DNA of 64,000 bases from the NCBI RefSeq assembly GCF_003856835.1, contig NZ_CP034145.1, positions 62,001 through 126,000 of the forward strand, written 5' to 3'. The stretch is from Haloplanus aerogenes. GTDB taxonomy: Archaea; Halobacteriota; Halobacteria; Halobacteriales; Haloferacaceae. A program made the position numbers and the translations under genes. Below the pieces are notes generated by a model. The model was not told the DNA's origin. It was given only the letters and a program-made list of their open reading frames with translations, and ran no database searches. This document shows positions 51,400-57,925 of the stretch, one piece after another; positions within the stretch are counted from its first letter, which is position 1; each line of letters begins with the position of its first letter.

Positions 51400-51504
51400 C
51401 CACTGCAGCGACGTTCGACCACCACGCGAAGCCACCTTCCACGCACACCGCACCGTGACGGTCGGTCGACGACTATAGGTGCGGCCGGCGTGTCGACCCG
51501 ACGG

Positions 51505-51756
51505 ATGCATTACGTCTACGTCCTCGAGTGTTCGGACGGCTCTTACTACACGGGCTACACGACGGACGTGGAGCGCCGGGTGGCCGAACACGACGCCGGC
51601 GAGGGGGCGAAATACACCCGCGGACGGACGCCGGTCGAACTCGTGCACGTCGAGGAGTACGACACGCGGTCGGCGGCGATGAGCCGCGAACACGCGATCA
51701 AGTCGCTGTCACGGCGGCAGAAAGAAGGGTTGGTCGACAGTGCTACACGCGATTGA
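51505..51756 (+). CDS. GIY-YIG nuclease family protein (UPF0213-like)
   Basis: An 83-residue single-domain protein with the GIY-YIG pattern VYVLECSDGSYYTGYTTDV at the start, then RVAEHDAGEGAKYTRGRTPV and AMSREHAIKSLSRRQK. The conserved Glu (MSREHAIK) is the metal-ligand candidate. Such single-domain members are probably structure-specific nucleases. The ATG at 51505 is chosen because CTATAGG at about 51472 fits a leaderless start there; a GTG at 51490 adds five residues. It overlaps the convergent zinc-ribbon gene by 14 bp. Confidence 0.88.
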   Translation: MHYVYVLECSDGSYYTGYTTDVERRVAEHDAGEGAKYTRGRTPVELVHVEEYDTRSAAMSREHAIKSLSRRQKEGLVDSATRD

Positions 51757-53481: not shown

Positions 53482-53526
53482 ATGAGCGGCACTGGCACGC
53501 GAAGTCGGATGGAGGTGATCGCTTGA
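53482..53526 (+). CDS. Possible 14-codon leader ORF with TTGA junction
   Basis: ATG at 53482 reads 14 codons and ends at TGA 53524-53526, which overlaps the TTG (53523) start of the membrane protein as TTGA. A TATGAG context and no clear SD are seen. Like the case at 18266, the exact stop/start overlap suggests translational coupling of a rare start codon. Coincidence cannot be excluded. Confidence 0.25.
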   Translation: MSGTGTRSRMEVIA

Positions 53527-54221
53527 GCGAAGCGTACGGCCCGCTGTCGCGGGTGCGACGGGTCCTCCTCGCGGAGACGGCGGCGATCCGGTGGTGGAGC
53601 CTCGTCATCGCCGCCGAACTCGCCCTCGTCGCCGCGTACGTCGCCGCGACGGACGTGATAATCACCGAACCGCGATACGTTATCTACCCGTTCGTCTGGA
53701 TCAACGTCGGCCTGTGGGCGATGATCCGCACCGACCTCCCGGGCGTCGAGGGGCGCCAGCGCACCATCGCCACCGCGCTGGCCGGGGGCTACCTCCTCCT
53801 GCTCTCGTGGGCGGGCGGCATCCTCCTCCTCGGCCTCTCCGGCCCCCTCCCCGGCGGCGCCGTCTCCTCGATCCACTGGAACATCCCCGGCTGGGGACCG
53901 ACCGTCATCGTCGGCACGCCGCGGGTTCGGCTGTCGATCATCCCGTTCAAACTCGTCGGCTACGTGGCGATGACCTACCTCGTTTACGCCCGCTTGCTCG
54001 ACGCGACGCGGGCGGTGCTCTCGGGCGTCCTCGGCCTCGTCTCCTGTGTCGGCTGTACGTTCTCCATCCTCCTCCCCCTGATCGGCGCGACCACGCTGTT
54101 CGGGTCGACGCTGACCGGCCTGTCGTGGGACCTCTCGACGGTCGTCTTCCTCGTCACCGTCGCCCTCCTCTACTGGGCCGACGAGGTGGGCGCGGCCGTC
54201 TCGCGGCGGCTAGACCTCTAA
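53523..54221 (+). CDS. Haloarchaeal polytopic membrane protein (TTG start)
   Basis: A 232-residue protein with seven hydrophobic segments, for example WWSLVIAAELALVAAYVAAT (23-42) and LAGGYLLLLSWAGGILLLGL (about 85-104). A CVGC pair (LVSCVGCTFSILLPL) lies in a membrane segment and could bind a metal or form a disulfide. The TTG at 53523 is the first usable start after the phosphohexomutase and forms a TTGA overlap with the mini-ORF. The family is unknown to me. It overlaps the convergent SAMP2-GNAT gene by 12 bp. Confidence 0.75.
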   Translation: MSEAYGPLSRVRRVLLAETAAIRWWSLVIAAELALVAAYVAATDVIITEPRYVIYPFVWINVGLWAMIRTDLPGVEGRQRTIATALAGGYLLLLSWAGGILLLGLSGPLPGGAVSSIHWNIPGWGPTVIVGTPRVRLSIIPFKLVGYVAMTYLVYARLLDATRAVLSGVLGLVSCVGCTFSILLPLIGATTLFGSTLTGLSWDLSTVVFLVTVALLYWADEVGAAVSRRLDL

Positions 54222-54797
54222 ACGGCCACAAAACCGTTCCTCGTCATCCTCGACGGCCTCGATGTCGAATCCCAGCGACTCGTAGAAGGGTCGCACGGCC
54301 GGGTCGAACTCCGCGACGAGACGACCCCGGTCGTCGAGGGCCTGCGACACCAGCGCCGTGCCGACGCCCCGGTCACGGTAGCGTCGCCGGGTCGCCACCG
54401 CGGTCACGCGGTCGCCGTCGCGGACGAGGGCGCCGACCGGTCGGCCCGAAATCGTCGCCACCAGCACCGCGCCGTCGTCGATACACTCGCGCACCGTCTC
54501 GGCGTCGGCCGAGAGCATCGCGCCGTCGACGAGACGCATCACGTCGAGGTGATCGTCGGGACGGGCGCGGCGGACGGTGACGGCCGCCTCGGCCGCGCCG
54601 CCCTTGACCAGTCGGAGCACCCGGACCCGGTCGGCGTCGACCCGGCGGTCCTCGGGGACCGGCGTGTCGTCGACGAGGACGGTCGCCTCGTGAGGGCTGA
54701 ACTCGAGGGCGGCGAGCAGGTCGCCGTAGGTGGCGTCGGCGTCGAGACGGAGGTCCCGCGTCCCCTCGCCCACCACCTCAGCACGCACCGTCGGCAT
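54210..54797 (-). CDS. Fusion of a SAMP2-like ubiquitin-fold domain to a GNAT acetyltransferase
   Basis: A 195-residue protein of two parts. Residues 1-67 match small archaeal modifier SAMP2: beta-grasp pattern MPTVRAEVVGEGTRDLRL, ATYGDLLAALEFSPHEATV, LVDDTPVPEDRRV and the end VRVLRLVKGG, a di-glycine at 66-67, as in the 66-residue Haloferax SAMP2. With no stop, the frame continues through AAEAA into a GNAT domain (about 73-195): acetyl-CoA loop RDRGVGTA (141-148) and FYESLGF (171-177). SAMP2 is both a protein modifier and the sulfur carrier for tRNA thiolation, functions that need a free GG end. Here it is internal, so cleavage after GG or loss of conjugation must apply. The ATG at 54797 is chosen (standard SAMP2 start). 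Confidence 0.85.
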   Translation of the reverse strand: MPTVRAEVVGEGTRDLRLDADATYGDLLAALEFSPHEATVLVDDTPVPEDRRVDADRVRVLRLVKGGAAEAAVTVRRARPDDHLDVMRLVDGAMLSADAETVRECIDDGAVLVATISGRPVGALVRDGDRVTAVATRRRYRDRGVGTALVSQALDDRGRLVAEFDPAVRPFYESLGFDIEAVEDDEERFCGRLEV

Positions 54798-54879
54798 GGG
54801 CGGAGGAAGCGGGCGGACAGCCCTGAACCTTCCGACCCTCGCCACGCGAGTTTTTGTCATCGAGCCATACACTACGGAT

Positions 54880-56149: not shown

Positions 56150-56153
<4 letters not shown>
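55932..56153 (+). CDS. Small zinc-ribbon protein
   Basis: A 73-residue protein starting MGLFSTITDTLKAS. CHDC (33-36) and CPAC (53-56) are the ribbon pairs; two extra Cys lie in the C-terminal GCAC. The stop overlaps that of the convergent CobW gene by CTAG. Function unknown. Confidence 0.72.
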
Positions 56154-57529
<1,376 letters not shown>

Positions 57530-57628
57530 GGTGACACGTCGGGCGGACGCCCATTTAAGCCCGCGGACGTGCGACCAGTGCGACCGACCGACGACACCCT
57601 TTTCTCTACGCCGCCGGGAGACGAGGGT

Positions 57629-57925
57629 ATGGATCTCGCGGAACGGATCGAGCGCTTCCGGCGGGTCGCCATGGAGTGGCTCCGTGGCCTGTATCACGGC
57701 CTGGTGACCCACCCGGCGTACGAGAAAATCGAGAAGGAAGCCGAGGATCAGGAGGACACCTTCATGCTCGCGTGTTTCCCCGACGCCTTCGGCATCCCGA
57801 GTCCGGTGTCGTACTACACGGCCGAACTCCTCCCGTATCTCGAAGACGAGTTCGAGGCGTGGGAGCGTCGGATGTGGAATCGGGGCTCGCTGCTCGAACG
57901 CAAGGGCGAACAGTACCACTTCTGA
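57629..57925 (+). CDS. Conserved 98-residue protein coupled to ArsA/Get3
   Basis: A 98-residue soluble protein. MDLAERIERFRRVAMEWLRGLYHGL, DQEDTFMLACFPDAFGIPSP and ELLPYLEDEFEAWERRMWNR are regular features; helical and acidic. Its stop overlaps the ArsA ATG as TGATG (57923-57927), implying translational coupling. I do not recognise the family. A partner of the ArsA/Get3 ATPase is a fair inference. Confidence 0.72.
   Translation: MDLAERIERFRRVAMEWLRGLYHGLVTHPAYEKIEKEAEDQEDTFMLACFPDAFGIPSPVSYYTAELLPYLEDEFEAWERRMWNRGSLLERKGEQYHF

Follow-up and report, generated by a model that had tools for sequence, protein, structure and literature searches.

The window analysed here, a stretch of 64,000 nucleotides of the Haloplanus aerogenes genome, carries on its minus strand one open frame in which a SAMP2-type ubiquitin-like protein (Ubl) is followed, without a stop at the junction, by a GNAT acetyltransferase domain (Table 1). 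In the profile search, residues 4-67 matched PF21965 with 89.4 bits (Pfam cut-off 27), and the fusion protein reached 102.6 bits against the SAMP2 equivalog NF041919 (NCBIfam cut-off 70). For the second domain, PF13508 (Acetyltransf_7, residues 108-178), PF13673 and PF00583 were all over cut-off, the GNAT profile matches spanning residues 100-178, and the sequence RDRGVG in this part fits the R/QxxGxG/A motif. The earlier note had read the gene as SAMP2-like up to residue 67, ending in VKGG, and in frame with a GNAT domain; this reading was borne out by the matches to PF21965, NF041919 and PF13508 on the minus strand.

A profile of the 12 host-genus sequences matched two solved structures of SAMP2, 2L32 and 4HRS; its match to the SAMP2 chain of the JAMM1 complex 5LDA was weaker. 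The AlphaFold model of the fusion (mean pLDDT 83) revealed two folded domains, with residues 63-73 between them being without secondary structure (pLDDT ~60) and the junction exposed. A fold search with the two-domain model returned GNAT matches and gave no clue to the GNAT substrate. The layout is that of a ubiquitin-type fusion precursor, with a Ubl placed in frame before another protein and Gly-Gly at the join. As encoded, 128 residues follow Gly-Gly, and the terminal di-glycine of a SAMP2 would be present only if the protein were cut.

The SAMP2 domain of the fusion has one lysine only, that of KGG. At the position of HvSAMP2 Lys58, the chain linkage site, Arg was found in 12/12 host-genus fusions, so that SAMP2 chains via this residue seem impossible in the host genus.

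Table 1. Features of the SAMP2-GNAT locus and of nearby genes (positions in the window)
Feature	Position	Strand	Remarks
Whole fusion gene, SAMP2 - linker - GNAT	54210..54797	(-)	195 aa + stop; 195-codon frame from ATG at 54797 to stop at 54212-54210
SAMP2 domain, residues 1-67, end VKGG	54597..54797	(-)	PF21965 1.9e-25; NF041919 over cut-off
KGG codons, residues 65-67; proposed cleavage at the peptide bond after the second Gly	54597..54605	(-)	pN 0.000, pS 0.61 (three codons, synonymous sites near saturation); cut inferred from PMC4443979
Linker AAEAA	54582..54596	(-)	length and sequence vary in 12 species; dN/dS ~0.84 (average near saturation); unstructured in model
GNAT acetyltransferase domain, residues 73-195	54213..54581	(-)	PF13508 4.1e-9; dN/dS 0.36 (average near saturation); GNAT fold matches
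Upstream element GGAAGGTTCAGG, possible promoter element	54822..54833	(-)	about -36 to -25 from ATG; near-invariant, 12 species
DUF7546 membrane protein	53523..54221	(+)	PF24412
CobW/COG0523-type GTPase, by eye	56150..57919	(-)	GSLGAGKTTLLNHLL, CICC
Small ORF, by eye like GIY-YIG nuclease domain	51490..51756	(+)	YVYVLECSDGSYYTGYT

On comparison of the upstream sequences, each of the 12 species had the element GGAAGGTTCAGG, nearly unchanged, ~25-36 bases 5' of the ATG, the spacer being variable; the element is perhaps the promoter of a nearly leaderless transcript. The DUF7546 gene converges on the fusion gene, with a 12-base overlap at its 3' end, and was found by tblastn to adjoin 12/12 fusions and none of the unfused loci examined. 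Elsewhere in the window, the presumed CobW/COG0523-type GTPase contains a long stretch of His-Ala-Asp-His repeats, and a small ORF resembles a GIY-YIG nuclease domain, both as judged by eye.

With one genome sampled per species, the same uninterrupted frame was found in 12/12 host-genus genomes at 69-77% identity. The absence of a junction stop, claimed earlier for the source, thus holds throughout, KGG reading on through AAEAA into GNAT in the source, and the suggested look for the same fusion in related genomes revealed it to be fixed in the genus. Host-genus linkers differ by species, from about 5 to 15 residues, which implies that the genus has carried the fusion for a long time. An internal start for a separate GNAT was ruled out for the source species, the stretch from KGG to the first GNAT strand having no in-frame ATG, GTG or TTG from which the GNAT could be made on its own. 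A separate free SAMP2 gene, for which the earlier note had proposed to search the source genome, was rejected, and no second SAMP2 over the family cut-off was found in any of the 12 host-genus genomes.

The partners of a functional SAMP2 are encoded as well. E1-type genes (ThiF family, UbaA-type) and NcsA-type genes were each found in 12/12 host-genus genomes. The Ubl-specific protease belonging to a fusion precursor system is represented in the source genome by a JAMM1 desampylase equivalog at C1:651016-651414, scoring 194 bits against NF041370 (cut-off 130) and having an intact E/HxH/D motif (E...HSHP...PSATD). JAMM1 was found in 11/12 host-genus genomes; the exception, G116, is 79% complete and has the fusion without JAMM1 being found. 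The host genus generally encodes a second JAMM protein, and other ThiS/MoaD-type Ubl genes are present. Two other Ubl proteins of the source genome (L153, C1:557400-558100, and L155, C1:678700-679500) end in GGA and GGNGA, respectively, and so apparently must be trimmed for a di-glycine to become free.

To judge selection at the junction, a codon alignment of the 12 genes was used. For KGG, a test on three codons, pN was 0.000 at a pS of 0.61, with synonymous sites near saturation; dN/dS, given as pairwise Nei-Gojobori averages near saturation, was ~0.84 for the linker, 0.33 for the SAMP2 domain and 0.36 for GNAT. From these values, the linker appears almost unconstrained, KGG selected and both domains constrained. 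Retention of KGG by common descent alone was rejected because the synonymous sites of the same codons are near saturation. There is no obvious reason why a permanent fusion should retain Gly-Gly; a cleavage site and a reactive end would give one.

What follows Gly-Gly elsewhere was determined from the SAMP2 3' ends of 134 genomes of the host family, comprising 25 genera. SAMP2 ends exactly at GG in 58/134 genomes, has a tail of 2-21 residues in another 58 (e.g. AE, SR, SSPR, ATDGDATDGDA, NGNVGFGDDCRA; the 21-residue tail of G140 is placed here, though the script tallied it as a fusion) and runs on into a complete fused domain in 18, namely GNAT in 13 and an AhpC/TSA redoxin in 5. Over half of the host-family SAMP2s thus carry something past Gly-Gly. 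The 13 SAMP2-GNAT genomes are the 12 of the host genus and G122 of genus g14. The redoxin, assigned with Pfam, follows in frame after KGG in G011, G037 and G056 (g12, L093-L095), G014 (g15, L089) and G020 (g21, L088), and in the loci of these three genera a separate GNAT gene comes after the SAMP2-redoxin fusion. A third pairing, a redoxin-GNAT fusion gene, is present in genus g3 (L087, L103 and L104 of G066, G077 and G092); at L103 it comes after a tail-less SAMP2 ending in ...RLIAGG. The GG itself is invariant in 158/158 SAMP2s of the class, the preceding residue being K, R, A, Q or T, and outside the host family a tail was found in 1/24 only, of one residue. The unrelated redoxin partner and the second origin of SAMP2-GNAT argue that the residues after GG hardly matter.

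The gene order offers a route to such fusions. SAMP2 and GNAT genes adjoin each other throughout the class, an adjacency already listed for Halobacteria in PMC2948915, and in the family the row consists of SAMP2, sometimes a redoxin, and GNAT, beside a GlmM/PGM-type mutase. In genus g14, nearly all SAMP2 genes have tails of 3-21 residues (e.g. L121, L123, L145, L146), and in 27/28 of the short-tailed genes the stop lies inside a GTGA/ATGA overlap of four bases, a type at which a following gene starts. This suggests that the tail is probably a stretch bringing the stop onto the start of the next gene; one more indel or stop loss would turn such an overlapping pair into a fusion. A quick tree of SAMP2 and GNAT, in which many branches are weak, gave ten changes between tail and no tail and at least five between fused and unfused, the latter being a parsimony count and not proven events since one origin for all SAMP2-redoxin fusions is compatible with the tree (p-AU 0.34). 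For the SAMP2-GNAT fusions, one common origin was rejected, the two lineages not forming one clade (p-AU 1.2e-4).

If JAMM1 is the maturase of SAMP2, a genome that lacks JAMM1 should have no tolerance for tails. Either a tail or a fusion was found in 75/121 family genomes with JAMM1 vs 1/13 without (Fisher p 1.8e-4), where "without" includes genomes whose sole match fell far below cut-off, and the lone tailed or fused genome without JAMM1 is the incomplete G116. Counted per genus, tails are present in 14/21 genera with JAMM1 vs 0/4 with JAMM1-lacking genomes (p 0.026), one of these four, g10, also having the JAMM1-bearing G054. The presence of JAMM1 goes with SAMP2 tails and fusions, as an association in which kinship is partly corrected only.

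We consider it likely that SAMP2 of the host genus is the front half of a precursor that arose by stop loss and is cut by JAMM1 after Gly67 to give mature SAMP2 and GNAT. The stop between two adjacent genes would have been lost, and the lineage would have tolerated the loss since it was already equipped with a protease maturing SAMP2 tails of almost any sequence. SAMP2 and GNAT would be translated as one precursor and supplied in equal amounts; JAMM1 would hydrolyse the peptide bond after Gly67; and the released SAMP2, with its free Gly-Gly end, would be activated by UbaA, serving in tRNA wobble-uridine thiolation with NcsA and in protein modification, while the free GNAT of ~128 residues would act on its own. 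Cleavage exactly after Gly-Gly we infer from the selection on KGG, the JAMM1/tail association and the precedent of HvJAMM1, whose cut of linear SAMP1-MoaE falls precisely behind GG, both in vitro and in vivo, and is blocked when GG is deleted (PMC4443979). Uncut SAMP1-MoaE is inactive without jamm1 (PMC4443979), and CsSAMP precursors are cut by CsJAMM (PMC6043591). In H. volcanii, thiolated tRNA-Lys(UUU) requires SAMP2, UbaA and NcsA (PMC4048286); an unprocessed sole SAMP2 would therefore be costly, and release by a cut behind Gly-Gly is probably necessary for the only SAMP2 of the host genus.

The earlier note had offered two readings, a precursor released in the manner of a ubiquitin fusion and a GNAT carrying SAMP2 as a docking or regulatory domain. 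The former is favoured by the invariant KGG, the lack of another SAMP2, the retention of UbaA, NcsA and JAMM1, the tails in the family, the redoxin partner and the JAMM1/tail association. According to the latter, which we deem unlikely, the fusion stays intact and the sulfur-carrier and modifier duties of SAMP2 were lost or moved to other Ubls. Constraint on both domains and the other ThiS/MoaD-type Ubl genes of the host genus are in keeping with it, as is the redundancy of Ubl sulfur carriers in Thermococcus kodakarensis reported in PMC11323500, by analogy with which a lost SAMP2 end might be compensated by other Ubls. However, a permanent domain leaves the retention of the free-end motif unexplained: KGG is unchanged while the adjoining linker drifts, the UbaA-type, NcsA-type and JAMM1 genes are kept, and related genera put an unrelated redoxin or meaningless short tails there, always after GG.

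About equally improbable is a cut after GG by a protease other than JAMM1, either JAMM2 or an as yet unnamed one. The second JAMM protein general in the genus would be a candidate, and in H. volcanii the turnover of TBP2 was affected by JAMM2 and not by JAMM1, the former being proposed as a SAMP2 recycler (PMC4895103); however, tails track the JAMM1 family, and it is for HvJAMM1 that activity on a linear fusion was demonstrated, with SAMP1 (PMC4443979). Still less credit is given to a partial, regulated cleavage in which the uncut fusion has a role of its own, e.g. as stored or inhibited GNAT or SAMP2. It would parallel covalent SAMP1-MoaE, inactive until freed by JAMM1 (PMC4443979), and would suit the adjoining SAMP2 and GNAT genes across the class (PMC2948915), yet the short meaningless tails of relatives need no regulatory reading. 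That the open junction is a sequencing or assembly artefact hiding a stop, an objection raised by the earlier note and fed by relatives outside the host genus keeping two genes with a stop between them, is excluded for the genus by the open frame in 12 genomes with differing linkers. A separate scan of genome contigs matched unfused relatives in every case. The related objection that homologues might always be two genes is correct outside the host genus, where two genes are the ancestral state, and fails within it, where the fusion is fixed. The fusion of G122 (g14), known from a single draft genome, could still be an indel error.

Beyond precursor processing by JAMM1, a functional link of the SAMP2 fusion to acetylation is possible. 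Many genera have the genes for SAMP2, redoxin and GNAT in one place, and each of the three possible pairs is also known as a fusion (SAMP2-GNAT, SAMP2-redoxin and redoxin-GNAT). Tentatively, and with the balance of our judgement against it, SAMP2, the AhpC/TSA-type redoxin and GNAT may form one module, the fusions being precursors for a redox- and acetylation-linked SAMP2 branch with the GNAT acting on a component of the pathway.

Ubl precursors, Ubl-MoaE fusions and the cleavage of linear SAMP fusions by JAMM proteases were already known. In the open-licence literature searched, no report was found of SAMP2-GNAT as the sole SAMP2 of a genus, of SAMP2-redoxin fusions, of the frequency of tails or of their co-occurrence with JAMM1. 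Eukaryotic ubiquitin has the processing of precursors as one of its hallmarks, and a whole archaeal genus appears dependent on such processing for its only SAMP2. JAMM1 would gain a probable housekeeping task in maturation, besides deconjugation, and the SAMP2 fusions and tails provide natural substrates for testing it. They also suggest a simple model for the birth of ubiquitin fusion genes, in which the stop slides onto the start of the next gene and then vanishes. Designs of "mature" SAMP2 copied from Haloferax misdescribe what many relatives encode.

In eukaryotes, ubiquitin precursors include fusions of ubiquitin to ribosomal proteins. As in the host genus, the modifier stands in frame before a protein unrelated to it, GG marks the join and the partners vary by lineage; the eukaryotic fusions are matured by cysteine deubiquitinases and there are several ubiquitin genes, whereas the host has a candidate metalloprotease and one SAMP2. 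The Haloferax type (arCOG00535-arCOG04721), the association of which was listed in 2010 (PMC2948915), has an orthologous SAMP2 adjacent to a related GNAT; there GG is the end of SAMP2 and the GNAT is encoded by a gene of its own, whereas the two are fused in the host genus. The passages of PMC2948915 consulted make no mention of the fusion, of tails or of a redoxin as third member. The SAMP1-MoaE and Ubl-MoaE fusions (PMC4443979) share with the host fusion a SAMP-type Ubl head to tail with an enzyme, a di-glycine at the join and a JAMM desampylase at hand. They differ in that SAMP2 is the Ubl of the host, joined to an acetyltransferase (in relatives, to a redoxin), a partner not known to act as Ubl acceptor; moreover, the SAMP1-MoaE tested in Haloferax, for which the cut was observed, is an artificial construct, whereas for the host fusion a cut is proposed. 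The ubiquitin and SAMP precursors of Caldiarchaeum (CsRpn11 / CsJAMM, PMC6043591) are likewise archaeal Ubls with residues after GG, which a JAMM protease removes; the tail of CsUb comprises nine residues, whereas SAMP2 is the Ubl of the host genus and has an entire folded enzyme as its extension.
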